A stretch of 33,116 nucleotides of DNA from NCBI GenBank assembly GCA_031271165.1, contig JAISWF010000245.1:1-33116 (forward strand), given 5' to 3'. The notes beneath the pieces were generated by a model. It searched no databases. It saw only the letters and a list, made by a program, of their open reading frames with translations, and had not been told where the DNA came from. Within the stretch, counting starts at the first letter, position 1. Every line of letters begins with the position of its first letter. A program made the translations under genes and the position numbers. Source of the DNA: Deltaproteobacteria bacterium. Lineage in GTDB: Bacteria > Desulfobacterota > Desulfarculia > Adiutricales > Adiutricaceae. This document shows positions 10,826 to 33,116 of the stretch, piece after piece.

Positions 10826-11243
10826 AAAGGTTTTTGGCTCCTGTAGGATAAATTTAGAACTAAAGAGAGATGTTGGAAAATTAAGAGATGTAAAATAATT
10901 TTTGTAAAAATATTAAAATTTCAATTTCTAAGTCAGATAGCAGGATGTTTGAAGTCAGATTTGTTGGTCAAGTCGGGCATCCCCGATAGGCTAAAACCAA
11001 GTTATTATACCAAATTCTAACATTTTTCCCTCTTAACCGTCAATAGCCAGCCCATAACTGTCGGCGTAAACCGCTGAGCCAAGGATAGCTCTGGCCATTT
11101 ACGCCAATCACCGGCTTGGGGGCTAATTGGGGATAATAAGGGGTCCACTTTTCAACGAAATTTTTGGAATACTTAACCCCTACATTGTTGGTTGAGATAC
11201 TCACCTGATAACTTTGGAAAACAAAACAGATTCTCTGGTCAGC
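10826..11243. other. glgP leader and junction to the accessory island
   Basis: Holds the AT-rich glgP upstream region (10840-10960, promoter not clearly resolved). Base composition and character then change toward the island. Short open frames here have no ribosome sites or recognisable content; I treat them as noise. Confidence 0.4.
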
Positions 11244-11279
11244 AGCAACCTTGGAGGTCATGGAGGTAACGAAATGGCT
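11244..11279 (+). repeat. 36-bp direct repeat, left copy (island border candidate)
   Basis: It begins AGCAACCTTG and ends GAAATGGCT, and matches 33081-33116 at 33 of 36 positions in the same orientation. Each copy contains GGAGGTAAC followed by ATGGCT, that is, a ribosome site and start codon. In this copy the reading frame stops at the next codon (ATG GCT TGA), so it looks like the 5' stub of a lost gene or insertion-sequence gene. Confidence 0.7.
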
Positions 11280-11980: not shown

Positions 11981-12057
11981 TTCACCTGAATACTTACTTC
12001 ATGGCGAGAAAAGACGAAACCAACTTTAATTCTAAACAAAAAAAGGAGTCAAAAAAA

Positions 12058-12633: not shown

Positions 12634-12710
12634 CCGGACGACAACATCAGAGGCTTGGCCTAAACCTATAACCGGCCAATTTTAACTAATTAATATCCTA
12701 AGGAGCTTGT

Positions 12711-13037
12711 ATGAAAATTCCTCACGCCAACCACTACGAGAGTAACTGTTATCGGGAAGATTGTACGTTTGAAATCCAGAGCCCTTTGTCTACATCCACT
12801 TCCCTGCAGCTTGAAAGTCAGCCCAATGAGCTGGGAAATTTGATGAAAATTCCTCACGCCAATAACTACGAAAAATACTGTCATAAGGAAGATTGGTTTA
12901 TTGAAAACAGTTCTTCTCAGTTTGTTCCTAACCCGCAGCCGCCAGAAAATGAGACTGAATCTAAAAAATCGGCGGCCTCCATACTATTGATTGGTGCTGG
13001 TCTCTTAGCGGCTCTTTACGCAATATTCAGTGATTAG
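12711..13037 (+). CDS. Small membrane protein with an internally duplicated 44-residue unit
   Basis: I do not recognise a known family. The 108 residues consist of two related units starting MKIPHANHYESNCYREDC (residue 1) and MKIPHANNYEKYCHKEDW (residue 45), spaced by exactly 132 bp. A linker and one C-terminal hydrophobic helix (SAASILLIGAGLLAALYAIF) follow. AAGGAG lies 8 nt before the ATG; the internal ATG at 12843 heads the second unit and could be a second start. After the TAG the same frame stays open for 47 more codons to a TAA at 13179, with coding-like content (GDGHWSYNSNKGQITIYARS), so the gene may be a shortened form of a longer one. It lies between the NYN gene and the Ub/E2 gene. 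Confidence 0.65.
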   Translation: MKIPHANHYESNCYREDCTFEIQSPLSTSTSLQLESQPNELGNLMKIPHANNYEKYCHKEDWFIENSSSQFVPNPQPPENETESKKSAASILLIGAGLLAALYAIFSD

Positions 13038-13269
13038 TTTTTGCAACAAAAGACAGGAAGCCAAGGAGATGGCCATTGGAGCTACAACAGTAATAAAGGA
13101 CAAATCACCATCTACGCCAGAAGCATGCCCTGGGAGCAATGCCGGAAAACTGAACTAAACCAACCAGCCGGTGGCGAATAATATAAGCGGCGACCAGAAA
13201 GGTACCAGGGATATGGAACCAAACCATTGCCACTCGCAACATCATCTATTGTCAGCCTTGTCAGTTGAA

Positions 13270-13345
13270 AGGAGCTTGAATAAAAATTCCTCTAATAGGG
13301 GCTGGCCTGTTAGTTCTTAGGGCAGTTATTGAATATTATTTATCA
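13270..13345 (+). pseudogene. Degenerate third copy of the small membrane protein gene
   Basis: AGGAGCTTG followed by TAAAAATTCCTC copies the leader and first codons of the gene at 12711, where AGGAGCTTGT precedes ATGAAAATTCCTCACGCC, but the ATG is lost. The sequence then jumps to a copy of the membrane helix (LIGAGLLVL). The middle of the unit is deleted. The frame remains open into the next gene. Confidence 0.55.
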
Positions 13346-13350
13346 AAATT

Positions 13351-13393
13351 CTACCACCAACACCAACACCACCACCACCAACAACAACAACAG
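13351..13393 (+). repeat. CAC/CAA trinucleotide repeat before the Ub/E2 start
   Basis: A run of CCA/ACA units (read as alternating CAC and CAA codons) ends directly in the AGGAG ribosome site of the next gene. In that gene's frame it would encode a His/Gln tract. Such tracts are prone to slippage and could vary in length between strains. Confidence 0.7.
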
Positions 13394-13405
13394 GAGACGA
13401 ATGAC

Positions 13406-14110
13406 ATGGGCAACTTGCACAACAACAACCAAGGGCAAACTATCGTTATTAATGGTCGGCGTATACCCATAGGCAATGGCCTACACGGGCATCAACTTAA
13501 CCAGGCAGCCGGTGCCAAGCGGGGACGACGCACGGTAATGGTCGATGGAATAAAGGTACAAACCGTTGAACACCATCATTTTTATCATCCACATGAATTA
13601 GTCGGTCGCAATGGAAAACCGATAAAGGTCAATTCCATTCCAGATCGTACCAAAGGAGGGTTATTCGACGAAAAACGTGACCAAGCATCCAAAGACCTGA
13701 TCCGGCGCCAAATTTACGACCTGGCTGCTAATTTCGCCCATGGCGGTTTGGATTTCGACGAAGACAATTCTAACTGGGTGATCTTTCCGCACTTTAAAAT
13801 GCCGGAAGCTTGGGGCGTTAGTACTTCGGCCCTTATGGTGATTTTTCCTGATGATTACCCCAGGATACCACCGATCGGATTTTACCTTCCCAGCAAACTT
13901 AGCTCCCCGTACGGGCACTTCTTTAACCAAACCTACCATGAGGCCAGTGGCGCGCCAATTAAGGAGGGTTGGAACTGGTATTGCTGTTACATCTCTGGTG
14001 TCTGGCGTCCGGCCCCAGATGATGGACGTAATGGTTGGAAATTTGGCGATAACCTCTGGACTTATCTGACTTTGATCAATGAGGTATTAACGTCAGGCCC
14101 TACCGAATAA
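13406..14110 (+). CDS. Ubiquitin-like domain fused to a prokaryotic E2 (UBC-fold) domain
   Basis: Predicted to combine a ubiquitin-like protein and its conjugating enzyme. Residues ~12-90 (QTIVINGRRIPIG, GHQLNQAAGAKRG, HELVGRNGKPIKVNSIP) follow the pattern of multiubiquitin-type beta-grasp domains. Residues ~95-234 resemble prokaryotic E2 families: FPHFKMPEAWG, the beta-strand LMVIFPDDYPRIPPIGFYLP, and the C-terminal WNWYCCYISGVWRPAPDDG with LWTYLTLINEVL. The adjacent Cys193-Cys194 are the best candidates for the thioester residue. The Ub-like domain is not followed by a free Gly-Gly C-terminus. AGGAG lies 9 nt before the ATG. The same frame is open upstream through the His/Gln repeat to 13280, but without a usual start codon. 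The next gene supplies E1 and JAB activities. Confidence 0.8.
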   Translation: MGNLHNNNQGQTIVINGRRIPIGNGLHGHQLNQAAGAKRGRRTVMVDGIKVQTVEHHHFYHPHELVGRNGKPIKVNSIPDRTKGGLFDEKRDQASKDLIRRQIYDLAANFAHGGLDFDEDNSNWVIFPHFKMPEAWGVSTSALMVIFPDDYPRIPPIGFYLPSKLSSPYGHFFNQTYHEASGAPIKEGWNWYCCYISGVWRPAPDDGRNGWKFGDNLWTYLTLINEVLTSGPTE

Positions 14111-14205
14111 GCCTGAAGCGAAGTCATAGTCACTGGCCGGGTACTATTATGCACCGGCCAGTAGTCGAAATTATCACTCATCCGAATTGGCCAAGGGGAT
14201 AGGTA

Positions 14206-15570
14206 ATGAAAAAGCCTGAATGTATCATCCGTTTCCCTCAAGGTAAACTGTTAGAACTTCGCCGGGAACTGTTAAAAGATTCTAGCCGAGAAGCCTTCGC
14301 CGTCCTGATCGGCAAAAAGCGAGAAATCGGTGAACACTGTATAATTGTAGTTGGAGATGTCTATTATCCTCAACCAAGTGAATACATTAATCAATCCCGT
14401 ACTCAGCTACGCATGAAAAAGAGCTTCATATACAGGGTCATGGCCGAGGCCCAAACTCGTCCTAATGTAGATACAATCATAGATGTGCATACGCACCCGT
14501 TCACTGACAGGGCGTGGTTTTCTCAGCAAGATGATGTCGATGAAATTAATTATTTCCAGTTCTTAGACAGCGAGGAACTTCCTTTTAGCTACGGTAGTAT
14601 CGTTCTTTCCCAAAAAACTGGCCAAGCCCGCATGTGGTATATGAATAATTTGCGTCCAGAGTATAAAGTTGCCGCCATCAAAACCCAGACGGCCTTAGAA
14701 GCCTTACCAACGACTGAAAACGAGAGCGACATTTTAGATGACGAACAAAAATCCAGAACCTTGTTGAGTCTTGGTGTGGATACCATGCGCCGAATAATTG
14801 CCGACCAATGCATAGTTTTAGCTGGTGTAGGCGGCCTTGGTTCGGTAATGGCTGAAAACTTGGTGCACCAAGGTTTTGAGCATTTAGTTTTGATTGATAA
14901 CGATATTCTTGATCATTCAAGTCTAAATCGCTTCGTTGGTGGTACCTTTGATGATGCAGAAAAAAAAAGACCCAAGGTAGAAGTCGTGGCCTCTCACCTA
15001 CAAGCTATTAATCCTCAAGCCAATGTAGAGACGGTGTTCAAACAGGTTGATTCGTTGGAAGCTGAGGAAAAAATGGCTTTGGCTGATTGGATTTTACTAT
15101 CCACCGACAACCACACAAGTCGCTATCAAGTTCAAAAGGCAGCATTGACCTATGGTGTGCCTTTGATCTCAGCCGGTGTTAACATAACCGTTAGGCATGA
15201 AAACGGTCGTCATGTCATAGTTGACCGAAGTGGAGAGGTTATCGTGGTCAGACTTGGCGACCACTTCTGCTTGAATTGTCTTGGACGCATAAATCTTGCC
15301 CTTTTGTCTGCTGAAAGCCATCCCGACCCAGAAGTCAGAGCTAAAACTATCTCTCGCGGCTATGTTTTAGGAGCCGAAGTTAAAGAGCCAGCGGTAAAAA
15401 CTCTTAATTCTGTCATAGGGGCGATGGCCATCGAAAGTTTGACAAACCAATATAAGGAAGATATGATCCATGAACCTATACTAGTGTACGAAAGTCATCA
15501 CGGGCTCTGTATGTATCCCGATCGAAGTACTTTTTCTCTTTTAGAAACTGGCTGCGCTAGTTGTCACTGA
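14206..15570 (+). CDS. JAB/JAMM peptidase fused to an E1 (ThiF-type) activating enzyme
   Basis: A two-enzyme fusion: deconjugating metalloprotease plus Ub-like activating enzyme. Residues 1-165 are the JAB domain, with Glu29 (SSREAFAVLIG) and the complete motif His95-x-His97-x8-Ser106-x2-Asp109. From ~residue 185 comes the E1/ThiF Rossmann domain: nucleotide loop AGVGGLGS (206-213), LVLIDNDILDHSSLNR with the catalytic Asn/Arg, Lys in KKRPKVE, and LSTDNHTSRYQV. Two CxxC pairs, Cys355/Cys358 and Cys450/Cys453, are placed like the zinc ligands of MoeB/ThiF. It probably activates the Ub-like domain of the upstream protein and can trim or reverse its conjugates. AAGGGGA precedes the ATG. A terminator follows at about 15,664. 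Confidence 0.9.
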   Translation: MKKPECIIRFPQGKLLELRRELLKDSSREAFAVLIGKKREIGEHCIIVVGDVYYPQPSEYINQSRTQLRMKKSFIYRVMAEAQTRPNVDTIIDVHTHPFTDRAWFSQQDDVDEINYFQFLDSEELPFSYGSIVLSQKTGQARMWYMNNLRPEYKVAAIKTQTALEALPTTENESDILDDEQKSRTLLSLGVDTMRRIIADQCIVLAGVGGLGSVMAENLVHQGFEHLVLIDNDILDHSSLNRFVGGTFDDAEKKRPKVEVVASHLQAINPQANVETVFKQVDSLEAEEKMALADWILLSTDNHTSRYQVQKAALTYGVPLISAGVNITVRHENGRHVIVDRSGEVIVVRLGDHFCLNCLGRINLALLSAESHPDPEVRAKTISRGYVLGAEVKEPAVKTLNSVIGAMAIESLTNQYKEDMIHEPILVYESHHGLCMYPDRSTFSLLETGCASCH

Positions 15571-17337: not shown

Positions 17338-18393
17338 GTGGCCGGAGAACGTTTACCAAGGCCTGGAAATGTTATGGGTGAAGAGTCTACAATTTTTGAA
17401 TTATTGAGACTTAATGGCTGGATTGAGCACTTAGATGGCTGGCGTAAAGCTGCAGTTCGAAAGCTGCGATCTTTAAGAATTTCTTCTAAGTATGACGATC
17501 AAGACATCAATTCGGCTTTGAATCAAGCATTTGAAGACGATAAACTCCTTGAATCTTTGAAAAAAAATGATGCTGGTTTGTTTCGCTATATCTGGAAAAC
17601 TAAAGCCCACAGTATTTTGTCCGATAAATTTCGAAACCATCAATACCGAGCTATAAGGGACAATGTAAAAAAACTCCATGATCAGGGATACTTATTTTAT
17701 CTGCCTGGAAAAAGGATGTCCAGTAACCCCTATAGCTATTTCGCTGCGGGACAAAAGGCTGATTTACCGAAGTTTATAGGGCAGTACCTGTCGGAAACTC
17801 CAAGATTTGACGAACTGGAGGCTCCAAAAATAGACGGCATAGATAAGTCAACTGAGTTTGTGAGAATTGCTGCCAAGTCTTTATGGTCTCAATATGCAAC
17901 AATAATTCCGCCTCCAGCTTATCTGTCTCTAAAGGAATTTCAGGTTTTTATAAATCATAAATTTAACATATCGGTTATAACAAAATATTTGCCAGCTAAT
18001 GTTCGATCTGTTGAATTAAAATTAAATCAATCTGAACAATGTAGTTATTTTGGCAGTCATGAATTAGATGAAACTGAAATCAGTAATCGTTTTGCACAAA
18101 TAGAGACATTAATTGATAGTTTATTTAGTCTTTTTAGTCAAAAAAGTCTGATAATTTTTTGCTTGGTAACTTCAAATTTAACTTTAGAGGAAATTGCCAA
18201 ATACGTTGATTTGAACAGTCCAGCCTCGGTTAGTTACCATTACAATAAGGCCTTAAAAATAGTTAAAGACTTTTGTAGCCGTCAACCAATGCTGGCCGAC
18301 ACCGATTGTGATCCAAAAATGCGAGAGGTCTTTACTCAAGCTTTGTGCAAGCAATGCGAAGCGGTTGCTTCTGAGATTAAACAAGGGAGGTAA
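17338..18393 (+). CDS. Sigma-70-like transcription factor (CalpS-like position)
   Basis: Predicted RNA polymerase sigma factor or sigma-derived regulator. The N-terminal third (around DDQDINSALNQAFEDDKLLESLKKNDAGLFRYIWKT, residues ~53-88) has the helical texture of a sigma region 2. The C-terminal part ends in a sigma region 4-like helix-turn-helix, LTLEEIAKYVDLNSPASVSYHYNKA (residues ~281-305), preceded by the helical pair RFAQIETLIDSLFSLF. The central ~140 residues are unassigned. The 351-residue length exceeds an ECF sigma. The GTG at 17338 has AAGGGA upstream; an in-frame ATG at 17374 is the alternative. It is the first gene of a three-gene operon with a MazF-like protein and a Lon-like protease, which suggests a sigma factor held inactive and freed by proteolysis. 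Assignment is by pattern only. Confidence 0.62.
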   Translation: MAGERLPRPGNVMGEESTIFELLRLNGWIEHLDGWRKAAVRKLRSLRISSKYDDQDINSALNQAFEDDKLLESLKKNDAGLFRYIWKTKAHSILSDKFRNHQYRAIRDNVKKLHDQGYLFYLPGKRMSSNPYSYFAAGQKADLPKFIGQYLSETPRFDELEAPKIDGIDKSTEFVRIAAKSLWSQYATIIPPPAYLSLKEFQVFINHKFNISVITKYLPANVRSVELKLNQSEQCSYFGSHELDETEISNRFAQIETLIDSLFSLFSQKSLIIFCLVTSNLTLEEIAKYVDLNSPASVSYHYNKALKIVKDFCSRQPMLADTDCDPKMREVFTQALCKQCEAVASEIKQGR

Positions 18394-18398
18394 GGAAA

Positions 18399-19352
18399 GT
18401 GCAGCTCAACTTTTTTAGTAATAATCCTACTATTGAGCCTCAAGGGGAGTTATTAGAAACTTGGCAAGCTCATTACGCCTGGCGTACAGCGCCTCCCGCT
18501 GGACCTGAGGTCCTTAAGCTTCTGACGAAGTCACTTCCTGAGTCTTTCTCAGCCCCGGCACCTGGTCAGCTCTGGCTTTTAAAAAATGAGCTTGACGGCC
18601 CAGACGAAGATGGTCTTTACCTGAACATGCCCATGGTGCTAATCATTTCTGCCTCTAATTTAAAATTCGAAGTAATGCAAACTGCGCCTTTTTCTGACTT
18701 AATGGGTCCCACTGATATCTATCTTAGCGACGACGACGGCTTTGTCGAGCCCTGGAATCGATTCACCTTGCCTCCTAAAGCTCTTAAGGAGTACCGAGGC
18801 AAGCTTGAACCTGGACTTTTGGAACGCATAAAAACTGCCAACCCTTGGCGTCCGATTTCATCTGGTTTAGATTGGGAGGAAGCCTTTTGGCGCTTGGAAC
18901 GCCAAGTGGCGGAGGCTGCTCGCCAGCGGGCTGCGGTGTGGCAATATGCTTCAGCCTCCTCGCCAAGTAAAATTGAAACAATTTGGAATAATCCTAGACA
19001 ATTAGCTGTAGAACTAATCCCGCCATCAACTACCTGGAGACTTCCTTTAGCTGCGGCTTCCAAAGAAAGCGTGGGCATCTCTTTCAGAACCCCAGATGGC
19101 TGGAAACTTGGAGTGGCCAATATCACTGGAGTCATTGAAGAAAATGGTTGGGTTACCCTCAAAGGCGAACTGAAAGCTCCAGGCAATTATTCGATGGACG
19201 CTTTCTTCGCTTTGGTTAAACAAGAGGGAGGAGAAGCAAATCTACCTGAGAAAATCCAGTTTACCCCGCCCTTCTTTGAGCTTGAATTTGCATCTGTTGA
19301 ATCGTTTAACCCTAATCAGTTGCAACTTTTGGTTATAAGCTATGGTGCCTAG
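18399..19352 (+). CDS. MazF/PemK-like N-domain protein, putative anti-sigma (CalpT-like)
   Basis: Residues ~53-130 have the layout of the MazF/PemK SH3-like barrel: APGQLWLLKN, then PMVLIISASN, MQTAPFSDLMGPTDIYL, and the typical end EPWNRFTLPPKAL. A helical linker (~145-185, QVAEAARQRAAVW) and a beta-rich C-terminal domain (~200-317, including GISFRTPDGWKLGVANITG) follow. Toxin activity is doubtful; in the Calp system a MazF-like protein serves as the cleavable inhibitor of a sigma factor. The GTG start has GGGAGG 8 nt upstream and lies only 5 nt after the sigma-like gene. Its end overlaps the Lon-like gene by 11 nt, so the three are co-translated. I infer the role of protease substrate holding the sigma-like protein; the sequence alone does not show it. 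Confidence 0.6.
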   Translation: MQLNFFSNNPTIEPQGELLETWQAHYAWRTAPPAGPEVLKLLTKSLPESFSAPAPGQLWLLKNELDGPDEDGLYLNMPMVLIISASNLKFEVMQTAPFSDLMGPTDIYLSDDDGFVEPWNRFTLPPKALKEYRGKLEPGLLERIKTANPWRPISSGLDWEEAFWRLERQVAEAARQRAAVWQYASASSPSKIETIWNNPRQLAVELIPPSTTWRLPLAAASKESVGISFRTPDGWKLGVANITGVIEENGWVTLKGELKAPGNYSMDAFFALVKQEGGEANLPEKIQFTPPFFELEFASVESFNPNQLQLLVISYGA

Positions 19353-21435
19353 ACGGCCGGTGACCATTGAAATGGCCGAAATGACGGCCCAGGCGGGCTG
19401 CGGTACACTTGCAGATTATCTTCACCATTGGCTGCAAAAATCCTGCCTTCCTCTGATTGGCCCCTTAACCAAAGCTGAACTTACCAATCTTCTCCAAAGC
19501 GCTGGCGAATATGCCAAACCTTTGGCCTTGCGCCTGGCGGCCAGTGCTTTGTTGAGTAGAGAGATTGCTCAAGATGCCGTGAAGCTATTGGAGGAACACC
19601 TTGATGTCCCTTTGACAGATTGGTCTCGGGCTTATTGGCTTCAACTGGAAATTCCCTGTTTCAATAGTGAAAGTTCCTCTTTGGTTCCCGTTTTAGTTGG
19701 ACATACCATCTCAAAGCTTACAGATTCTTCCCTAATTGGCTTTCTGCCTGACAGCTGCCAAGCCATAAGATTGGCCTTGAAGCTAGCTGAGGAAAAATGG
19801 GGTGGTCAGGGATTGATATGGAATTGGAGCGGTACTGGCATTACGGGAGAATCTTTGGGATTACCGCTGTATTTAGGCCTTTGCAGTGCCGCTAATGGTA
19901 GGACCCAGCCTGACACATTAGCTAGCGGACGGCTTTTGTCTGATGGCCGAATTGCTGAAGTCGAAGGTCTAGAAAAAAAAGTTGCTTTAGCTGGTTGCCG
20001 AGGATTCATCATTCCAGAAGCAAATTTAACTTCAGAATTATCAGCCTTACCTCAGATTATACCAGTTGCTAACATTGACGATGCCTTGGAGTTGTGGTTC
20101 GATTGCGGTTCCGGATCCTCTCCTATGGCGGTTATTGAATTGCGCAGGGCTTTGAAAGAGCCCGAAAAACTTTTTTCTCGTCTTTTAAGTCTGACCGATG
20201 CAGATTGGCAGTATGTCGATCGCCCCTGTCATCGGCAACAAATTTACCAAGCGGTTCTCAATAATCCTATAGAGGCTAATAGTCTCAACTATATCTTTAG
20301 AGAGATACGTGGGCCTAAAAACAAAAATCGGCAGAAGGCCCGTGATTTTTTAACTCTGTTTGACTTCGACCTTATCCGGAGCATTGGTGAAAAGTCGCCA
20401 GTTCTAGCTTGGCGACTGGCCATATTGTGTGGTGGGGAATCCAACCATAATGGTCGGATCGATGATGCCGGTCAATATTTTGATCTGGCGGCTACCTTTG
20501 AGAGTTCTATTGAAGCTGATGAAGAACCAGAAGAGCTAATCGCCGGTGTCATCTCAAAATTAATGTTCAAGCATAACAAATATAATTTTCTCGGTGAGCC
20601 TCTCGAACTAATTGGTCCCCGCCTTTGGGGGTTGTTTGAAGATAAGAGGCGCTCTCAAAGCTATCGCCTTAAGGAGGGGAAAAAACCAGCCGACAAAGCT
20701 TTGGGTGATTTTTTCGGAGCTTGTGGCCAGCATTTGGCCTTTCAAGGGAAATGGACGCAAGCAGAGAGACGATTCAGCCAAGCCTTAGAATGTTTTACCT
20801 CCGATGATGACCGTATTCAAACCTTTGGCTATCAATTGTTTAATCATCTGGAAGCGGGCGAACTTCCTCAAGCTCGAGCCAAGCTTGTGGCTATTTGGAA
20901 AGGCCCTGATTTATCGTATGACAGAGCATCCAAACTCTCAAGCCATATCCGTCCCTGGGCCTTGTTTGCCCTTGCTCGTTATCAGGCAGAGGCTGGTGAC
21001 GCCGGAGCTGAGGCCCAGTGTTTATTAGAAAAACTGGCTCAGGAACTTTCTGATAATAATACAGCTTTTGGTGAACGCGTCCTCCAGGACAGCAGGCACC
21101 TGCATCCGTGGCAATTAATTATTTACAATCTAGGCCTAGCCATAGACAACGAGCTGGTTAAAAGAACTCTCTGGAGTCGCTGTCTGGACCTCTGTCTTGA
21201 CGCCAATGATAGACCAACAATAAAAGCCATGGCCTTTTTACCATTGTCAGCCTTACACCATTATGGTCTAGATAGTACTCTTCAGAATCAGACCTTAAAT
21301 ACGATTTTCAGCTATATTGATGAGGTACTCTATCGCCCGCATTTTCAAATACTTTTCCAGGCCGCCAGCTTTACTGAAGCCATGGAGCTAACATTTTGTC
21401 GGCGAAAAGAACTTTTCCCGTTCAATTATCGGTGA
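19342..21435 (+). CDS. Lon-type (S16) protease domain with helical repeat C-terminal region
   Basis: A stand-alone Lon proteolytic domain without an AAA+ motor. Residues ~105-250 align with the Lon core: VPVLVGHT, the serine loop TGESLGLPLYLGLCSA with Ser171, LASGRLLSDGRIAEVEGLEKKVALAG with Lys213, GFIIPEANL, and IPVANIDDALELWF. The Ser-Lys spacing (42) is nearly that of E. coli Lon (43). Residues ~255-697 are helical with TPR-like units (QHLAFQGKWTQAERRFSQAL), the motif HPWQLIIY (from residue 588), and the exact C-terminus PFNYR. Both motifs recur in the 909-residue protein downstream. The start overlaps the MazF-like gene. I expect a regulated protease whose C-terminal region senses a signal, with the MazF-like neighbour as likely substrate. 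No SAVED domain is apparent. Confidence 0.8.
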   Translation: MVPRRPVTIEMAEMTAQAGCGTLADYLHHWLQKSCLPLIGPLTKAELTNLLQSAGEYAKPLALRLAASALLSREIAQDAVKLLEEHLDVPLTDWSRAYWLQLEIPCFNSESSSLVPVLVGHTISKLTDSSLIGFLPDSCQAIRLALKLAEEKWGGQGLIWNWSGTGITGESLGLPLYLGLCSAANGRTQPDTLASGRLLSDGRIAEVEGLEKKVALAGCRGFIIPEANLTSELSALPQIIPVANIDDALELWFDCGSGSSPMAVIELRRALKEPEKLFSRLLSLTDADWQYVDRPCHRQQIYQAVLNNPIEANSLNYIFREIRGPKNKNRQKARDFLTLFDFDLIRSIGEKSPVLAWRLAILCGGESNHNGRIDDAGQYFDLAATFESSIEADEEPEELIAGVISKLMFKHNKYNFLGEPLELIGPRLWGLFEDKRRSQSYRLKEGKKPADKALGDFFGACGQHLAFQGKWTQAERRFSQALECFTSDDDRIQTFGYQLFNHLEAGELPQARAKLVAIWKGPDLSYDRASKLSSHIRPWALFALARYQAEAGDAGAEAQCLLEKLAQELSDNNTAFGERVLQDSRHLHPWQLIIYNLGLAIDNELVKRTLWSRCLDLCLDANDRPTIKAMAFLPLSALHHYGLDSTLQNQTLNTIFSYIDEVLYRPHFQILFQAASFTEAMELTFCRRKELFPFNYR

Positions 21436-23446: not shown

Positions 23447-26176
23447 ATGGGCAGTATTAGTAAATGTATGGACAATGATTACTTAAAAACAAAACAAATC
23501 GAAGCTGCTGAACTAGCTAAAGATTGGATTATAGCTGTAGTCTCAGGCAACAAGGAAAAAAGTAAAATACTGTCTGACAGAATTAGAAATTCTCACGACT
23601 CCCACCTGATGATCATATCTGCTATTAGCAGATTAATTGGAATTACTGGACAAAGTTTCAGTTCTCTGATTAGCGGCTTTACTGATCAAGGCAGTGAAAT
23701 AAATTTTTATTCGGACAATGTGGCTGAATGGCAGCCGATTGCCAATTCCCCAGCTGTCCCAATTTCACAATCCTTTCAAGAGAAAGACTACAAGTCACTA
23801 CTCTTAGATTTTCAAAAAAAGGTTAGTTGGGACTCCCCTGAAAATGAAATATCTCAGTTGAAAAGTCAGATTCTCCAATTCAAAATTGAAAAATCAAAAG
23901 CTCAAAAAGAAGAAGATATTAAGCTCGCTGAAAAACGGGGACTATCTTTCAAGGTTCAGGAACAAAAATTTAATAAGGCCTTGAAAAAGGGACCTCTTTC
24001 AGACTGCGTCCTTAGCGCTTACCAAACGGCAGAAGAATTCTACAAAAAGAAGGCCGAGAAAAACTTGACTAACTCTCTAATGCTAACCGCAAACCGCTTG
24101 GTGGGAGATGCGGAGAGATTTGATAGTTTTATCCAACAAGCGACCGAACGTTATCCATTTGCCGCCGAATCACTTGCGATAAAAAAAGGGGAATTCGCAT
24201 CGAGCCTGATTAAATTAAAAAATGATAACTATCAATCGAAAACTATAGATGTTTATTCAGGTGCTGAACACAGAATTAATTTTTTGAATTATAGTTCATC
24301 TTGGACAACATATATTGATGAGACAGGTTTATGTTTTAACCCAGCTAATGTTGATGAAGTCGATGGAAAAGTGGTAGCAATTGTTGTTCCAGACTCCTTG
24401 AGACTACCACAAATCGATCCCCAATTCCACGCAACGACAAGTTTACCTAATGTCGTTCTAAGCAAACTTAATTCGTTACTAAGCCATAGTGTTGGTATTT
24501 TGGGGTTTACCGCCCGCTCCCTCCATGTTATGAATAGTGACGATTGGTTCCAAAACATACGAGCACTTCTCGGCTGGATCTGGCGGTTGTTACCTTTGCC
24601 TGGAGAAAACGCAGCTAAAGTTGTTCTGAACGTGATCATTGAAAACCGAAGAAATTACACTCCTGACATAAATATGGAGCCTATGGCTTGGGCAATAAAC
24701 CAAGACTGGGACAAAGAAAATCACGAACGCCATAAATATGTCACATTGGGGAATCTTGGCCTAGCCCCCAAAGGCATACAACCCGGTCTGGCTTGGGCTG
24801 ACGTAACAGCCTATTTATGGGGCTCGTCTAAAACAGAAATAAAAAAAGGATTAAAACAAAGCGGACTTGTTGGTACCTGTTTATTTGATTTAAAACGTGA
24901 TTTACTAGCTCTTTGTGTCAAAGCGTTGATCGGCTGCGACCTGCTGACCGGGCCAGAGTGGCAGCGTTTGATGGAAGAAAATGATGCCGATCGCCAAGGT
25001 AGCTTGGTCCAATTGGCGCTTGAATCTACTATGCGGTTTTGTCTCCAGTCACATGATCAAACAAGGATTTATATAGAGGCGTTACGCCAATATCTTGATA
25101 CCAAAAAATATGACCTGAAAATTCTCAATCGACAAATTAAATGGCTTAGTCAGGTCAATGCTGAAACAATCGCTCCAGATTTACGTTTTTATTGGGAATC
25201 CGCCAAACTGGCTCATCATAATCATTTAGGTGATTTTTCATCTGAGTCAGTTTTAGCAACGAGAAAGAAACTACAGGAGCTGATACCAGGTATAGGACAA
25301 AAAGACCCTCAGTCCGCTATTGAAGCCCGTCTCCGATTTGCCGTCATGTCTTTCAATGCCTTCGACTTCTCTAGCGCTAAAAATGAATTGGCCCCATATG
25401 ATGAAACTCAAGGCGGGCGGCTCCCAGAAGATGGTTTGTCCGCTGGCAAAGTTCTTAGCTGTCTCGGCCAGCTCGAAGCTTTTCTAGGTAATAATAGTCA
25501 AGCCTTAGAGTTGTTCGATCGAGCGGCTGAAGCTTTTTCAAGATTGGTACATCATCCTGAAGAAGTAACCAAGCAATTTGAGCAGACTAATATATACGCT
25601 GCCATTGCAGCTATGGATGACTTTTCAGTAACCAATGATGAGAAACGCCGCCGCATTGAAGTGGCGATTGGCAAAACGGTAGTGGAAGCCAGTCATAAGT
25701 TCAGTCAAAGTGACACTCTAAACGAGACCCGCTACCTACATCACTTACTTACTCGTTATTTGGTAAATTTAGGGCATAAAAGTGAAAAAGCTGCTTATCT
25801 TTTAAATTCATCTAAGTGGTTGATACCTGGCCTTGGTTTCATCAATGGTCACCCATGGTACCTAATTCAATATTACCGTTGGTTGATGCTCACTGAAGCT
25901 CAACCAGAGCAACAAAAACGAAACCACCAAATTCGGGAGAGCATTTTTGAGGATTGTATGCCAGCTTCTCCTGGACTAACAATTGATTTTATAGGCCTTG
26001 CTTTGGAAGTAGTCTCAGGACGCATATCTCAATTAGAAACCAAATTTAAACATAATTTAGTTCGGCTTCAAGAAAAAATACCCAAGGCAGAACCGTGGCT
26101 AAAAGCTTTGGAAAATATTTCTGCCGAAAGTGGACATCAATCGTTGACATCAATATTGCCATTCAATTACCGATAA
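23447..26176 (+). CDS. DUF3800-like (RNase H fold) protein with the shared HPW/PFNYR C-terminal region
   Basis: Residues ~1-260 are helical and charged (coiled-coil-like around QLKSQILQFKIEKSKAQKEED). The middle resembles DUF3800/RNase H-fold proteins: strand and acidic pair TYIDETGLCF (Asp291, Glu292), KVVAIVVPDS, VVLNVIIENR, and the late GLAPKGIQPGLAWADVTAYLWG with Asp452. This suggests a metal-dependent nuclease or a derived binding domain. Residues ~550-909 are helical TPR-like repeats (GQLEAFLGNNSQALELFDRA) with HPWYLIQY at 802 and the C-terminus PFNYR, both shared with the Lon-like protease at 19342-21435. The ATG lacks a strong ribosome site (ATG at 23468 is an alternative). The STAND gene starts 28 nt after its stop, so they are co-transcribed. 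Catalytic activity is inferred, not shown. Confidence 0.65.
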   Translation: MGSISKCMDNDYLKTKQIEAAELAKDWIIAVVSGNKEKSKILSDRIRNSHDSHLMIISAISRLIGITGQSFSSLISGFTDQGSEINFYSDNVAEWQPIANSPAVPISQSFQEKDYKSLLLDFQKKVSWDSPENEISQLKSQILQFKIEKSKAQKEEDIKLAEKRGLSFKVQEQKFNKALKKGPLSDCVLSAYQTAEEFYKKKAEKNLTNSLMLTANRLVGDAERFDSFIQQATERYPFAAESLAIKKGEFASSLIKLKNDNYQSKTIDVYSGAEHRINFLNYSSSWTTYIDETGLCFNPANVDEVDGKVVAIVVPDSLRLPQIDPQFHATTSLPNVVLSKLNSLLSHSVGILGFTARSLHVMNSDDWFQNIRALLGWIWRLLPLPGENAAKVVLNVIIENRRNYTPDINMEPMAWAINQDWDKENHERHKYVTLGNLGLAPKGIQPGLAWADVTAYLWGSSKTEIKKGLKQSGLVGTCLFDLKRDLLALCVKALIGCDLLTGPEWQRLMEENDADRQGSLVQLALESTMRFCLQSHDQTRIYIEALRQYLDTKKYDLKILNRQIKWLSQVNAETIAPDLRFYWESAKLAHHNHLGDFSSESVLATRKKLQELIPGIGQKDPQSAIEARLRFAVMSFNAFDFSSAKNELAPYDETQGGRLPEDGLSAGKVLSCLGQLEAFLGNNSQALELFDRAAEAFSRLVHHPEEVTKQFEQTNIYAAIAAMDDFSVTNDEKRRRIEVAIGKTVVEASHKFSQSDTLNETRYLHHLLTRYLVNLGHKSEKAAYLLNSSKWLIPGLGFINGHPWYLIQYYRWLMLTEAQPEQQKRNHQIRESIFEDCMPASPGLTIDFIGLALEVVSGRISQLETKFKHNLVRLQEKIPKAEPWLKALENISAESGHQSLTSILPFNYR

Positions 26177-26204: not shown

Positions 26205-29200
26205 ATGCCGATTGATGCAATAGATTTTAAAGAAGATGTTTCTGAAGGTGATGTAGTTACTTTACTAGAAGATGATGGTGTTCAATGGATAGGAACAATT
26301 GTCGCTATAAGAAATTCAAGTGTTAAATTACTGCCTTTGGACGACCCAACCGGCACTCCTGTAACTATCCTTTATGAAAGCGTCAAACGATACCGTCCTG
26401 GCCGGACTAATTTGACTCTTAAATCTGGAACCACGACCACGACCTCTGAAGCGGCATTGACATCATCTAACACTGTTGTCAATAGTGTAGCACAAAATAA
26501 TGCTGTCCAGGCCAAGCTTGATCTTTTATTAGAACGTTTTAAATCGTCTTTAGAGCGACCGCTTTTGGATGAGGTAAAGCCCGATTTTTTTCGAAGCCAA
26601 GCTGATTCATTATCATATACTAGTAAAGTTGATATTGAAAAAGAAATTAATAAGTCTAAAAATATATATGATACAGCATATAATCGTAAAGAGTTGGCGA
26701 GATTAAACAATGCAATAGGTAATTTAGGAAAATCTATCACTCGTTACCCTAGAGAAGCAGTTTTTTATTCATTAAAAGGTATTTTTTTGTTTAATCTTAA
26801 TAAAAAAGATGAGGCAATTGAATATCTAATGATTGCCGCTGGCTTATCAAATACAAATAGCGATTGGCTTAATTTAGCGCTCCTTACACCCTATTACCCA
26901 CTTAAGGCCCTGGCATTTCGCAATTATTTTGTCGTTTCAAGCTCTGTAATTGAAAATAAATATTGGTATGCATTTGTAAATGCATCATGTGAATCATCTT
27001 CTTTTTCAAGTCTTAGCCGTTTAATTAATAAATATATTCAAAACAATAAAAATAGTGGGCAATTAGAGTTAATAGCTAATACTATTGTATTTTTGTTTGA
27101 TAAATTGGGCTCTAAAGATGATGCTCTAGCTGCCATAATTGAATTGGAAAAGAAATCTGATTTGCTATCAACAGTACAGAAATTATATCTAACTTTACAA
27201 TCTTTAGTTGAAGGTAGAACTGAAGCAGCTTTACTTGAGGCTGAAAAAAAACTCAACACTTTAATTAATTCCCTGCCATCAGCTCAAACTCAACCATTGT
27301 CTGAATCATTGTCCACGCATGCTTCTTTTCACAGAATGCCAGGCATTGGAGCTGGTAAATTTTATTCTGGCTATGTTACTAGCTTTAGAAAAAATTCTAA
27401 TGACTCAAAGAGTTTTTTTTGGGAGGGATATATAGAAATTGATGGAAATAAAAAAGTTTATTACAGGTATTACGATAATTATATACCTGATAAAATACTG
27501 CACGATTGTTTATCGCGGGAAGATTTTACGCAACCTATATGTTTTAATATGATTAATAATTCTTTCGGGCAAAAACAAGCTATAAATTTATGCATAAAAC
27601 CGATTAATAAACTACAAAATGACGCAAATAAAGACAAATTAAGCCAACAAAAAGAATTTGATCTGATAAAGACGCCACATACCATTGAGCGAACTGGCGG
27701 GACAACTCTTTTGGCAAGAGCTAATTCTGCCATCCAAGCAGGAGATCGTGAACAAGCCGTGATTAGGCTATCAAATGGAGTCAAACAATTTCCGGATGAT
27801 GAACGTATCTTACTACTTTTAGCCCAGCAACTATCAGCACTTAATAAGTTTTCCGAGGCTTCTGATATATATTCAAGTCTTATTAATGTTGAAAAAAAAT
27901 TAAATCGTCCAAAGGCATTAAAAAATGCAGAAATACAATATGTTTTGCTTTCTATTAAATCAGGACGTATTGATACTGCCAAGATAAAATTGAAAAAACT
28001 AGTAGAAAAATACCCAAACGACGAATATTTAAAGCAATTAAATGAAAAAGCATCGACTGAGTTAATAATAGATTTAAATGATGAATCAAAGCTCGTTTGG
28101 GAGTCTTTAGATGAATTAGAGTCAGATATTTCCCCCTTTTTAAAAAGAGAACTTGAATCAGCCGGTTTTTATGATCGAATAATCTCAGAAAAGGGCGATA
28201 AACCTTCTCCTGAAGATGCCAAACGTTTGATGGCTGCAGCTATCAACTCGACAGCTAATGACCAGCATCCATTATTTCTTGAGGCGGCCAAAGCTTACAG
28301 TCTTCTCCCGCCCGGGAGTTTTGATCTTGATGAATACCACCTTTGTCTTTCAAGGTATGCCATGCAAAAGGCCAAGGTGCTGGTTGACCGAATGCTGTTC
28401 CTTTCAACGTCAGCCACATCAATAGAAAAAAATGCTGAAATACTCATGCAGCTTCGCGATAGTGCCACGAGTTACTATATTGAAGCCCTTTCTTGGCTTA
28501 AGCCTGAAAATGTTAAAGATGTCGGGTCATCAGTTATTAACTATTTTTTTAAAAGCTTATTAATTGGTTTTTTTGCCGAGTCACCGCATAATTTTTCCAA
28601 GGATATGCTATCTACCGAATTTAAAAAAGTTTTCAGAGAGGCGTTGACATCAAAAAATGAAGAATTATTTTACTTAGCGTGCAATGCAGTTCTAATATGG
28701 GGTAGTTACCCTCAAATTTGGAATATATTAGTAAACATACCTGATGGACCTGGGGCTGTGACCTGGTTAATGATGAAAGGTTCTTTTAAAAATCGGGTAG
28801 GTGAATTTTTTTCAAAACTTACCGGACAAAATATTCAAAATATTCAATTTATGTATCCTAGAGATATATTGCGCCAAGCATTTGAACATAGGCGCAAAGA
28901 GCGTGGTGATATGCATGCTTTTTGCAGAAATTTATTGATATCTCGTAATTTAAAGTCTTCAGAGTATTTTAGAGAGTTAAAATATTGTTTAACAAAGTTT
29001 CCTCGGGCTAACGGTTCGCTTTTTTCATCAGATATAATAATGTTTGAGCGCCTTAATGATATAATACAAGAAATGACGCCTTATAAGAATGCATCTTATG
29101 AGGAGCGTGGTGATATGCTTGTTAGAACACGTCTTAAGCTTTCGAATAACAAACAAAATTTAGGACTTTTAGAACATATCAACCAATCCCCAACTTATTG

Positions 29201-30875
29201 GCAAGTAGTCGGCTGTGAAGCTGTGATTATTCAATGCCTTAAGACGATTGAAACTATTGAAGACAAGCGGATGGAAGACCGCAAACCAAAACTCTCTTTT
29301 TCCTTGGAACCAGCTAGCTTTACTAAAAGCGGGACTGAATTTTACACATCCTTACATACCAAAAACGAAGGGCATGCTACAGCCAATAATGTTAAAATTG
29401 AGCTTATTGTTCGAAATATATCGCAGCCTCATGAACCTATATATTCATATAGTTTTGAAATCGAACGTATTGAACGAAATACAGATCATACCTCATCTCA
29501 AATAACTTTACCAGAAGATTGCTTTGATGAGTCACAAGGAGAGATTGAGTTATTTATTAGCGCTAAATACCTTGAAGGTCTCAAAGAGCCGCAGGCCTTT
29601 ACTATTGAAAAAGACCTGGGTAACTCTTTTTCCAGTGAAGAAATCCCTTGGAACCCCCAAACAGTGGCAAAAGATGAGATATTCAAAGGACGTTTAAATC
29701 TTTTGAGCGAATTAAAAGAAAGCTTAAACAGACACGGCCGCTCATATACACATATGTTGTGGGGTGTGACCAGAAGCGGAAAAACATCGATCCTTCATTC
29801 TTTTCGAACTAAAGAAACCGGGGCTCCTTTACCAGATGACGAGTTAAATAGGACTATAGTTTGTATTGACTGGTTGTTCAACAAAGCCGAGCTAGTTAAT
29901 TCTCCAGAGACTTTATGGACATTTCTTTTGGAAGCCTGCCGGCAAGATGTGGAAAAGTTTACGAATGAACGAAATATCGACTTAAATAGGGTCTTGAAAA
30001 GCTCAGCTACAGCTCAGGCTCATGACTTTATCTCTTTGGTGAGTTACCTAAAATCGGCAGGATTGTATCCAATTTTTTTAATAGATGAGTTTTCCTATAT
30101 TCGCTCAATGTTTGATAAAAAATTAATCGACGCTTCTTTTTTGTCGACGATGCGTGAGATGGCCTTAAACGATCAGGCTACATTTATAGCCGCCGGCACC
30201 TATGATGTAAAGGAATTGCTCACGGATCATCGTTATGGCATAACAGGACAATTTGTTAATTTAAAATTACATTTTGTTACTAGTATTGAACCGGAGCCAG
30301 CAAAAGAAATTATTACCATATTTGAACCAAAATTACGCTTTACAGAAAGTGCTGTCAATTATATAATACAACAATCTGATTGTCGACCATACCTTATTCA
30401 AACTATAGCTTATCATTGTGCTCAATATGCCTTAAACCGTCATCGCAGTATTTTAGGCCGACCTGAGGTTGAAGAAGTAGTTTTAGCATTGGCTGGTCTA
30501 AAACCTCTTGAAGATTTTTCGGCCTTAGAATGGACTCATTTTCAAGATAATTTGATTTTTTTCCGGGCAAAACAAGATGATTCAACCTTGGACCCATCCT
30601 CAAGAAAACAAGGAGCAATCTACTCTGCGATAACCACTTTTATTAGTCATGAAGTCTCAACAACCTATAACCACCTGCAAACAAAATGGAAAGAGGAAAA
30701 ATTGCCTCCTGACTGGCTGGCCGATGGCTTGAAACAGTTGAAAGATCGTGAAGTTATAACAGAGAAAATAGATGAAGGTGTTATAATGTATAGTATTAAA
30801 GTCGGTTTATTTCATCTATGGTGGAAGCGAGCTAATAATGATGTGGAACTTGAGTTTGATACGCTAAAAGTATGA
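26205..30875 (+). CDS. Giant STAND-type ATPase with small-barrel N-terminus and TPR-like repeats
   Basis: A 1556-residue multidomain protein. Residues ~10-70 (EGDVVTLLEDDGVQWIGTIVAI, ILYESVKRYRPG) look like a Tudor/LSM-like small barrel. TPR-like helical units follow (LARLNNAIGNLGKSITRYPREAVFYSLKG). A beta-rich OB-like segment starts near residue 380 (GKFYSGYVTSFRKN, WEGYIEIDGNKKVYYRYYDNY). More TPR-like units come next (ALNKFSEASDIYSSLI). A beta-sandwich (~1025-1140, LSFSLEPASFTKSGTEFY) precedes the ATPase: P-loop GVTRSGKT (1187-1194), Walker B PIFLIDEF (Asp1294, Glu1295), and a C-terminal winged-helix-like end. No N-terminal nuclease is recognised, so it may be a sensor/switch for the co-transcribed DUF3800-like protein. 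AGGAG lies 9 nt before the ATG. Its codon use is much more AT-rich than that of genes before 11 kb. Confidence 0.75.
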   Translation: MPIDAIDFKEDVSEGDVVTLLEDDGVQWIGTIVAIRNSSVKLLPLDDPTGTPVTILYESVKRYRPGRTNLTLKSGTTTTTSEAALTSSNTVVNSVAQNNAVQAKLDLLLERFKSSLERPLLDEVKPDFFRSQADSLSYTSKVDIEKEINKSKNIYDTAYNRKELARLNNAIGNLGKSITRYPREAVFYSLKGIFLFNLNKKDEAIEYLMIAAGLSNTNSDWLNLALLTPYYPLKALAFRNYFVVSSSVIENKYWYAFVNASCESSSFSSLSRLINKYIQNNKNSGQLELIANTIVFLFDKLGSKDDALAAIIELEKKSDLLSTVQKLYLTLQSLVEGRTEAALLEAEKKLNTLINSLPSAQTQPLSESLSTHASFHRMPGIGAGKFYSGYVTSFRKNSNDSKSFFWEGYIEIDGNKKVYYRYYDNYIPDKILHDCLSREDFTQPICFNMINNSFGQKQAINLCIKPINKLQNDANKDKLSQQKEFDLIKTPHTIERTGGTTLLARANSAIQAGDREQAVIRLSNGVKQFPDDERILLLLAQQLSALNKFSEASDIYSSLINVEKKLNRPKALKNAEIQYVLLSIKSGRIDTAKIKLKKLVEKYPNDEYLKQLNEKASTELIIDLNDESKLVWESLDELESDISPFLKRELESAGFYDRIISEKGDKPSPEDAKRLMAAAINSTANDQHPLFLEAAKAYSLLPPGSFDLDEYHLCLSRYAMQKAKVLVDRMLFLSTSATSIEKNAEILMQLRDSATSYYIEALSWLKPENVKDVGSSVINYFFKSLLIGFFAESPHNFSKDMLSTEFKKVFREALTSKNEELFYLACNAVLIWGSYPQIWNILVNIPDGPGAVTWLMMKGSFKNRVGEFFSKLTGQNIQNIQFMYPRDILRQAFEHRRKERGDMHAFCRNLLISRNLKSSEYFRELKYCLTKFPRANGSLFSSDIIMFERLNDIIQEMTPYKNASYEERGDMLVRTRLKLSNNKQNLGLLEHINQSPTYWQVVGCEAVIIQCLKTIETIEDKRMEDRKPKLSFSLEPASFTKSGTEFYTSLHTKNEGHATANNVKIELIVRNISQPHEPIYSYSFEIERIERNTDHTSSQITLPEDCFDESQGEIELFISAKYLEGLKEPQAFTIEKDLGNSFSSEEIPWNPQTVAKDEIFKGRLNLLSELKESLNRHGRSYTHMLWGVTRSGKTSILHSFRTKETGAPLPDDELNRTIVCIDWLFNKAELVNSPETLWTFLLEACRQDVEKFTNERNIDLNRVLKSSATAQAHDFISLVSYLKSAGLYPIFLIDEFSYIRSMFDKKLIDASFLSTMREMALNDQATFIAAGTYDVKELLTDHRYGITGQFVNLKLHFVTSIEPEPAKEIITIFEPKLRFTESAVNYIIQQSDCRPYLIQTIAYHCAQYALNRHRSILGRPEVEEVVLALAGLKPLEDFSALEWTHFQDNLIFFRAKQDDSTLDPSSRKQGAIYSAITTFISHEVSTTYNHLQTKWKEEKLPPDWLADGLKQLKDREVITEKIDEGVIMYSIKVGLFHLWWKRANNDVELEFDTLKV

Positions 30876-31110
30876 AATATATAGATACAAGAGATGGTTT
30901 ATAGTAGTAAATTGTAGTGGTAGTAGTAGTATATAAATGCGAGCAATATTAAAATTTTATTCATATAAATATGTTTAATGGGCGTAACGCTTGGGTGGGA
31001 GTCAAACTTATTTATTTTTAAAACAATATGATATCTTTTTTATCGTAATGTTTAATTTAATTAGCTAATTTTCTTTTTTAGTTAATATTTACTTAGCGGA
31101 GTTGGAGAAT
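30876..31110. other. AT-rich gap between the two STAND genes
   Basis: It is 235 bp and strongly A/T-rich, with TAG/TAGTAG-type repeats near 30,900-30,935. No terminator or clear promoter can be fixed. The gap suggests the last gene has its own transcription start. Confidence 0.4.
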
Positions 31111-32931
31111 ATGAATGCATTTTCCCCAAGTAGCTGTGTGAGCGATCCCCAAAAACTTTTTGGATGGAACAATAAGGGTGGTCTTCTGGAGCGAGCCACT
31201 GAAATGATACTTTCTGGTGTGTCCTTTCAAATAAAGGCGGAACGAAGAGCTGGCAAAACTTCTATGGTCAACTGTCTTATGGCCAAATGCAATGAAAATC
31301 GCCATAAATCGCTTCATGCCCCCTTACCTGTCAATATCCCCTTCTATGAAAGAAAACCAAAAGGTACTGAAGAGGGATATAGATTTGCATTATATAAAAT
31401 AATTAAATCATTGCATAAAGCTAAACAAGATGGTGAAAATTGGATAGACTTTTTGCTAACATTAGGACATCGAAATATTAATCTTCATGATCCGTTAGCT
31501 CAATTAACTGAAATGAATCAAGCTTATTTGATGGAATTACTTGATGAATTAAAAACTTTTTTAACTTATAAAAAACAAAGCATGCTTTTATTTTTCGATG
31601 AATATGAATATATGGAAGAAGTTTTTAATGATAACCCAAAAAATTTCTTTTCAGCTTTTAGAGGATGTCAACAAGACTATGAACCGACCAAAGGAGGAAT
31701 ATTTTGTGTTCTAGCTGGTGCTGAAAATAGAAGTGATTTTGCTAGCCGCATAGGTTCATCCCATTTTAATGCTTTTACTGGTACTCCGATTTATTTAACT
31801 CCCCTCCAATTTGATGATTTTAGAAAAATGTGGGATGACTGTTTGGTACAAAGTTCAGATGATATACGTAAAAATGTTTTGAACAGAGCCAAGAACATTA
31901 AGAAAATTTATGAAATGTGCGGTGGTATACCTAGTTATGGCAAGATTCTGGGCCAACATTTTGGTTTTAATGAAGAATCTGACTTTCCATCACAACTGCA
32001 AGAATGGTTTAAAGAAATATTTAACCGTCAAACTGAAAAAGGTAAGTTAATACTTCTAACTGTTGCCGAAGATAGTCCATTATCTAGTATAAAATCAAAT
32101 GTTGAAGATGAAGAAAAATTATTACGCTCAAATTTAATTTCTTTTAATGAAAGTGATATTGGTGGGTATCACATACATGGTGGGTTGTGGAAGCGCTATC
32201 TTGACAAGCTAAATGCTAGACAGAATAAATCCTATGAAATAAGCCATGCTGGCGATCTGGCCAGGTTAATTATTAGAGAAAAGAAATTGCCGAAGTTACT
32301 GGAATTAGTTAAAGGAAATGAAAATGACTGGCTCGAATTTAAGGCGACCTTGATTCGTTCGGGCGCGTACAAAGAAGATTCCAAAGAGGGCGATACTAAT
32401 GATGATTATATTTGGCATGTTCTTAAAGCAATAATTGCGATGGCCAATACTCGTGGTGGCTGCGTCATTATCGGAGTATCTGATGAAGGTCATGTTATTG
32501 GTATAGATAAAGATAACTATATCAAAAATCAAGAATCAGACTATCTTAGAAAATATATCATTCAACATCTTGGAAGGTCAAATTTAGTTATAGATGAGAG
32601 GCGGCGACCATACACTCCTGTGACTGCTTTATGTAAAATTGAAAAGCCAAATGTATCAGCTCATGTAGTGCCGATCGGAGATGAATATGTCGTTGCACTA
32701 GTCGTTTCGCCAAACGAGGATTCCCAATGGCAAACTATTGAATATGAACTTGAAGAAAGGAAACTGAATCGAAAAGAACCTCCGCAACAAAAAGCTTATT
32801 TTTTATGTAGAAGTTCTAATACTGCGGAAAATATAAAATTATACGACGATGTTCAAATTTCTGACCATCGAAATAAACGATTAAGCTGGTTTAAGGATGG
32901 ACTTGAAGAAATTTGGCTTAAATTAATATAG
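31111..32931 (+). CDS. STAND-type ATPase fused to a Schlafen AlbA_2 domain
   Basis: N-terminal ATPase: LFGWNNKGGLLERATEMI, P-loop AERRAGKTS with Lys49, Walker B MLLFFDEYEYM with Asp163, and a winged-helix-like segment to ~residue 375. From ~400 comes the AlbA_2/Schlafen domain: NDWLEFKATLIRS with Glu409, AIIAMANTRGGCVIIGVSDEG, and IGIDKDNY. In eukaryotic and some bacterial relatives this fold binds or cuts RNA/tRNA. The layout (sensor ATPase plus nucleic-acid effector) is typical of conflict or anti-phage proteins. I chose the ATG at 31111 because GGAG (31098-31101) is 9 nt upstream; the TTG at 31102 would add three residues. No dedicated partner gene follows within the window. Confidence 0.85.
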   Translation: MNAFSPSSCVSDPQKLFGWNNKGGLLERATEMILSGVSFQIKAERRAGKTSMVNCLMAKCNENRHKSLHAPLPVNIPFYERKPKGTEEGYRFALYKIIKSLHKAKQDGENWIDFLLTLGHRNINLHDPLAQLTEMNQAYLMELLDELKTFLTYKKQSMLLFFDEYEYMEEVFNDNPKNFFSAFRGCQQDYEPTKGGIFCVLAGAENRSDFASRIGSSHFNAFTGTPIYLTPLQFDDFRKMWDDCLVQSSDDIRKNVLNRAKNIKKIYEMCGGIPSYGKILGQHFGFNEESDFPSQLQEWFKEIFNRQTEKGKLILLTVAEDSPLSSIKSNVEDEEKLLRSNLISFNESDIGGYHIHGGLWKRYLDKLNARQNKSYEISHAGDLARLIIREKKLPKLLELVKGNENDWLEFKATLIRSGAYKEDSKEGDTNDDYIWHVLKAIIAMANTRGGCVIIGVSDEGHVIGIDKDNYIKNQESDYLRKYIIQHLGRSNLVIDERRRPYTPVTALCKIEKPNVSAHVVPIGDEYVVALVVSPNEDSQWQTIEYELEERKLNRKEPPQQKAYFLCRSSNTAENIKLYDDVQISDHRNKRLSWFKDGLEEIWLKLI

Positions 32932-33080
32932 TTACGTATTAAAGCTTGATGGTTTATGTTGTTTTTTGCTTAAAAAGACAGATTATCTTATATTAAGAAT
33001 ATTTTTAGTGCGCCGTGGAAAGGCGCATATACCTAGCGGTGTTGAAATACCCGCCCGGCAACTTAACTGCTCCAGCCGGT
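32932..33080. other. Gene-free end of the island
   Basis: It is AT-rich to about 33,005. It then holds a short perfect hairpin GCGCC/GGCGC (about 33,010-33,027) without a T-run, and GC-richer sequence leading into the right copy of the 36-bp repeat. No gene is supported. Confidence 0.45.
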
Positions 33081-33116
33081 AGCAACCTTGAGGGTCATGG
33101 AGGTAACAAAATGGCT
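33081..33116 (+). repeat. 36-bp direct repeat, right copy (cut by window end)
   Basis: Matches 11244-11279 at 33 of 36 positions in the same orientation, including GGAGGTAAC and ATGGCT. Here the context (GGAGG, 8 nt, ATG GCT) could be a true gene start continuing past the window. The match may extend further. Confidence 0.7.

Follow-up and report, generated by a model that had tools for sequence, protein, structure and literature searches.

The locus described here raises the question of which protein, if any, acts as the effector of a large STAND-type ATPase. The stretch of DNA analysed (hereafter the window) is 33,116 nt long and makes up all of contig 229 in a draft genome 3.7 Mb in size. 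The ATPase, P0001, is encoded at positions 26205 to 30875 of the forward strand, between a gene for a DUF3800-like protein and a gene for a second ATPase.

Domain organisation of P0001

The frame is intact over 1556 codons and, on reading of the ORF, a Shine-Dalgarno-like AGGAG lies ahead of the ATG. From the N-terminus, and all on the forward strand, P0001 comprises a small LSm/Hfq-like barrel (residues 12-66; 26238-26402), a helical/TPR block (residues 100-375; 26502-27329), a cold-shock-like OB domain (residues 385-470; 27357-27614), a second TPR block (residues 500-612; 27702-28040), an Ig-like beta-sandwich (residues 1027-1135; 29283-29609) and a STAND-type ATPase with a C-terminal winged-helix-like region (residues 1154-1540; 29664-30824). 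Walker A (GVTRSGKT, residues 1187-1194; 29763-29786, forward) and Walker B (IFLIDE, residues 1290-1295; 30072-30089, forward) both fall within a P-loop domain of STAND/ORC-like type, which by sequence argues for the assignment of P0001 to the STAND ATPases. The GxP region reads CRPYLIQ in P0001 (residues 1393-1399) and AGSPFYIQ in the relative of the same architecture described below; the proline is retained and the first glycine is missing from P0001.

When P0001 was compared with Pfam on its own, only the TPRs exceeded the cut-off (TPR_19, 3.6e-8, for the second block). The barrel gave a sub-threshold KOW/PUA-like signal and the C-terminus gave sub-threshold matches to ATPase_2, TniB and AAA_22. 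Single-sequence AlphaFold2 models were too poor for use (pLDDT 39 and 36), and the beta-sandwich appeared as a strand-rich model of low confidence (pLDDT 53-63). The barrel and the beta-sandwich are putative assignments, made solely from position and predicted strands, the barrel being position-matched to those of two relatives.

A first-pass annotation of the same DNA had described a 1556-residue ATPase with a clear P-loop and Walker B, an OB-like module and no known effector domain, and each of these points is borne out: the motifs lie in an intact frame, the OB-like module corresponds to a region that Pfam recognises as a cold-shock domain in the relative (CSD, 1.5e-6, over the cut-off), and Pfam recognised no catalytic N-terminal domain in either P0001 or that relative. 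Its Tudor/LSM-like barrel has been narrowed. An archaeal relative of the N-terminal half has a weak Pfam match to Hfq (0.004), and LSM-like is therefore a better label than Tudor. The beta-sandwich that it proposed is kept on predicted strands and position only, the shuffle test giving z = -0.2 against the relative of the same architecture and 2.6 against an Acinetobacter protein. The arrangement of the TPRs in two blocks and the presence of a second ATPase downstream went beyond that annotation.

STAND ATPases usually, if not universally, carry an N-terminal effector and C-terminal sensor repeats. This order is reversed in P0001, where the TPRs and modules of RNA-binding type are N-terminal and the ATPase is C-terminal.

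Relatives of P0001

No close relative of P0001 was found in plasmids, phages or IMG/VR by direct homology searches, in IMG/VR when searched with a two-row alignment, or in a GTDB exact-peptide scan, and the full-length protein gave no match at E 1e-5 in 395 genomes of its phylum. A search at a looser limit that used only residues 1020-1556 matched a 1585-codon frame in genome G269. The single relative of the same architecture, at locus L078 (10566-15272), is a predicted protein of 1568 amino acids that is 24% identical to P0001 nearly end to end and has the same order of modules: LSm/Hfq-like barrel, TPR, cold-shock domain, TPR, beta-sandwich and STAND ATPase. Its ATPase matched ATPase_2 (2.6e-5) and nSTAND1 (1.4e-4), both under the Pfam cut-off. 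Shuffle tests between the two proteins yielded z = 16.8 for the STAND module (12.9 against the Acinetobacter protein; hhalign E 8.6e-13), 13.7 for the first helical/TPR block (hhalign E 1.9e-5), 5.7 for the middle helical part, 5.2 for the cold-shock domain, 3.0 for the second TPR block and a weak 1.8 for the barrel.

Other relatives share one part or the other. A plasmid of the archaeon Methanomethylovorans hollandica encodes the LSm/Hfq-TPR-cold-shock half without STAND, upstream of a UvrD-PDDEXK helicase. Plasmids of Acinetobacter ursingii (locus L085) encode a fusion protein in which an N6-methylase and a specificity domain precede the STAND module, with a local alignment that begins at P0001 residue 1072, inside the beta-sandwich. 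Matches in Rhodococcus are stand-alone STAND proteins of 392 amino acids, adjoined on the opposite strand by a phospholipase-D-family gene.

The downstream ATPase gene

A gene for a 609-residue protein (31102-32931, forward strand) follows P0001 after 226 nt, with no overlap. Its Pfam matches, composition and position, which is that of the partner gene at L078, make it a putative partner of P0001 that combines an AAA_35-like ATPase with a C-terminal Schlafen AlbA_2 domain (SLFN_AlbA_2, 3.3e-12; AAA_35, 0.02, or 0.0086 on residues 1-400). The P-loop is AERRAGKT (residues 46-53) and Walker B is LLFFDE (residues 162-167). Pfam and motif reading place the AlbA_2 domain at 32320-32727 (forward strand), where E407, E412 and D461, the second spacing being 49, have a Schlafen-like arrangement that we take to be the residue pattern of Schlafen RNases; an RNase role is putative. 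Schlafen RNases act as antiphage effectors that cleave tRNA (PMC12839542).

At L078 there is an overlap of 22 nt between the STAND gene and the next gene, the product of which is a second ATPase with HEPN_Swt1 as its C-terminal domain (Pfam 1.7e-7, over the cut-off). This domain is intact and contains the motif RTPLAH, of the HEPN RNase type; RNase-type residues are thus present in two of the partner proteins. In A. ursingii the overlap is 8 nt, and the product of the next gene is an ATPase homologous to the L078 partner (E 1.2e-7). A STAND gene followed by a second ATPase was accordingly observed in three independent settings, that is, in the window and in two other lineages.

The ATPase part of the 609-residue protein showed no detectable homology to the other two partner ATPases (z = 1.3 and 2.7; hhalign probability 3%), and the three have only weak AAA_35 matches in common. 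As homology to the other partners is not demonstrable, the pairing with P0001 rests on position, architecture and composition. P0001 (GC 36%, GC3 28%) and the 609-residue protein gene (GC 35%, GC3 26%) are alike in composition and unlike the upstream 909-residue protein gene (GC 41%, GC3 35%) and a Lon-like gene further upstream (GC 47%, GC3 42%). Peptide-pattern scans of viral contigs for the 909-residue, Lon-like and 609-residue proteins gave no match.

The upstream DUF3800-like gene and alternative explanations

The gene directly upstream (23447-26176, forward strand) encodes a 909-residue DUF3800-like protein with TPRs and a C-terminal PFNYR tail. P0001 starts 28 nt past its end, the spacing reported in the first-pass annotation, which had proposed a two-protein switch formed by these two genes. 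Control of the DUF3800 protein, of RNase H fold, by P0001 would fit two genes on one strand with no convincing promoter or terminator in between, and the 28-nt gap means that they could be co-transcribed. The DUF3800 domain has acidic positions conserved across its relatives (D291, E292 and D452); two of these relatives begin with a clear YxDESG motif and one has a full-length, sub-threshold DUF3800 match. RNase H domains are also often associated with TOTE-type systems (PMC12458937). Against this reading, the pair is conserved in neither direction in the sample searched, a result that the first-pass annotation had itself named as refuting, and the two genes differ in base composition. The sole full-length relative of P0001 has no DUF3800 neighbour and is followed instead by the ATPase-HEPN gene, and no P0001-like STAND gene occurs near the DUF3800-TPR relatives in five other genomes of the phylum (two contigs being short or cut). 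Where the contig shows their surroundings, the genes of these relatives either belong to a type III cas operon or adjoin a Lon-TPR gene; a GTDB scan for DUF3800-TPR proteins returned three loci only, apparently ones already found. The C-terminal 400 residues of the 909-residue protein are homologous to those of the Lon-like protein of the window (19342-21435), with a shuffle z of 5.0 that drops to 3.3 when the tail is left out, and the PFNYR tail is common to both (26159-26176 and 21418-21435). In 60 genomes the terminal PFNYR DNA pattern occurred twice, both times in the window. PF[STAN]YR ends 15/15 Lon-TPR proteins, and DUF3800-TPR proteins end in LPFNY[RC] or FTFNY[RHY]; such tails were observed in the window and at L029-L042, L048 and L053. 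Because the C-terminal TPR region and tail are common with Lon, and the relatives are at type III CRISPR loci without a STAND gene, the 909-residue protein is judged from these sequence comparisons to belong to a separate system, and its control by P0001 is considered improbable. Of the switch first proposed, a separately encoded effector is probably correct and the upstream partner is not supported; the predicted RNA-cutting partner is most likely the downstream gene.

The same evidence bears on the suggestion that P0001 serves a type III CRISPR signalling pair, formed by the Lon-TPR and DUF3800-TPR proteins, as their docking platform or sensor. All three are encoded in one island, and another contig of the genome carries an array and a type III-A locus whose Cas10 looks active. 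Yet a P0001-like gene was found at 0/14 other Lon-TPR loci and at no cas-operon DUF3800-TPR locus in the stretches fetched, and the PFNYR tail is missing from P0001, making this explanation a very unlikely one. It is also rather unlikely that P0001 acts alone, or as a regulator without a dedicated partner, amid neighbours that are unrelated island cargo. The island genes do vary in composition and include remnants, such as a decayed 2-kb stretch between the Lon and 909-residue protein genes, and unrelated systems, and the partner ATPases of the three settings are not demonstrably homologous; the independent recurrence of a second ATPase after the STAND gene in all three argues against it.

A proposed two-gene unit

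The reading preferred here, to which we would give about an even chance on the sequence evidence, is that P0001 serves as both sensor and switch in an antiviral unit of two genes, with the 609-residue ATPase-RNase as its partner. For this unit we infer that P0001 senses RNA and activates its partner, that the partner cuts RNA and that the unit acts in defence, probably by abortive infection. The LSm-like barrel and the cold-shock domain would probably bind RNA or another nucleic-acid cue, with the TPR blocks as scaffold. Binding of the cue would cause the STAND ATPase to switch state and activate the second ATPase, encoded at 31102-32931, the Schlafen AlbA_2 domain of which would then cut RNA, tRNA or rRNA being plausible targets. 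The partner of the Desulfobacca-type relative has a HEPN RNase where the 609-residue protein has the Schlafen domain.

A broader proposal is put forward more tentatively, as a possibility that we would not yet favour: an immune switch of two ATPases that is modular and whose ends can be exchanged. A common STAND module would be driven either by an RNA sensor of LSm, TPR and cold-shock modules, as in the sulfate reducers, or by DNA-methylase and specificity modules, as in Acinetobacter, and the toxic tail of the second ATPase would be either a HEPN or a Schlafen RNase.

Comparison with known systems

In a survey of 2013, Npun_F6454, MED222_16016 and Desac_1927 appear among HEPN (Swt1) proteins linked to "STAND-ATPase, TPR, S1" (PMC3710099, Table 1). 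The L078 locus may be Desac_1927 of Desulfobacca acetoxidans, as it lies at approximately 2.15 Mb, near the expected place of gene 1927 of 2,969. The window locus resembles that group in its STAND, TPR and OB-type RNA-binding domains and linked RNase-type domain, but its partner has a Schlafen AlbA_2 domain, not HEPN, on a separate second ATPase. Linkage to a HEPN RNase is present at L078, and in the window the partner has SLFN_AlbA_2 instead. The table row makes no mention of an LSm-like barrel or a beta-sandwich.

TOTE conflict systems consist of TPR, OB, TBP and Effector components (as cited in PMC12458937). With these the P0001 locus has in common TPRs, a cold-shock OB domain and a linked, predicted nuclease, and differs in its STAND ATPase. 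Membership was rejected because none of the main proteins of the window matched TBP in a Pfam scan. The Acinetobacter plasmid pair (WP_171265591, WP_171265589) has a homologous STAND module, a strand-rich region before it and then a second ATPase gene, but the front of its STAND protein is of DNA-methylase/specificity type whereas that of P0001 is LSm-TPR-cold-shock.

The association of STAND, TPR and OB domains with an RNase was already known from one table row of 2013, and systems that combine TPR, OB and an effector go by the name TOTE. The papers available gave no description of the LSm-like barrel, of a STAND switch in common with a methylase-type sensor, or of the apparent HEPN/Schlafen swap. 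If the proposal is correct, a scattered observation becomes a defined two-gene unit, the effector of which is to be sought downstream and not upstream, and the idea that STAND proteins of bacteria can use LSm and cold-shock domains to sense RNA becomes open to a clean test. The proposal would also separate off an independent story, that of the TPR domain and C-terminal tail common to DUF3800 and Lon type III CRISPR effectors.

Genomic context

The first 11 kb of the window contain ordinary genes of 53-57% GC, and from approximately 12 kb the genes are of 35-48% GC. This low-GC part reads as a defence island encoding an NYN-domain protein, E2-like and JAB-E1 proteins, a sigma-like/MazF-like/Lon-like cassette, the 909-residue protein, P0001 and the 609-residue protein. 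A 47-nt direct repeat, 83% identical (11233-11279 and 33070-33116), flanks the island, the second copy being at the contig end; it may reflect either a mobile element or a repeat that broke the assembly. Positions 12001-15570 constitute a ubiquitin-like defence module with an NYN nuclease, a 108-residue protein with an internal 73-nt repeat, an E2-like protein and a JAB-E1 fusion.

The sigma-like/MazF-like/Lon-protease cassette (17338-21435) resembles CalpS/CalpT/CalpL of type III CRISPR. The Lon protein retains the Ser171/Lys213 dyad, but it carries a TPR domain at its C-terminus, and neither a CARF nor a SAVED sensor was recognised in it. Lon-TPR cassettes occur in approximately 5% of genomes of the phylum, several beside cas1, cas6, cas10 or a CARF-adenosine deaminase; at two loci (L038:14711-17529 and L041:5252-7961) the CARF-adenosine deaminase is accompanied by an adjacent Nudix-like gene of approximately 198 codons. 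At L035:3797-10273 sigma, anti-sigma-like, DUF3800-TPR and Lon-TPR genes form one run followed by cas6, the DUF3800-TPR gene being embedded in the Lon cassette. The common PF[STAN]YR-type tail looks like one that accessory effectors of type III CRISPR use for docking or regulation. TPR-DUF3800 proteins have been noted near Cas12a2, and VI-F and V-A2 loci are known to contain DUF3800 nucleases (PMC10910872, PMC12669027).

No CRISPR array was found in the window. Contig 179 of the same genome (L055) carries a type III-A CRISPR-Cas locus with a Csm6-like CARF-HEPN protein, Cas6, Cas10 with GGDD, RAMPs, a small subunit with an N-terminal cold-shock-like domain, a Cas4-Cas1 fusion, Cas2 and an array of approximately 31 repeats. 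The window also contains a cobalamin riboswitch (1664-1854, reverse strand) and a bacterial small SRP RNA (7639-7734, forward strand).
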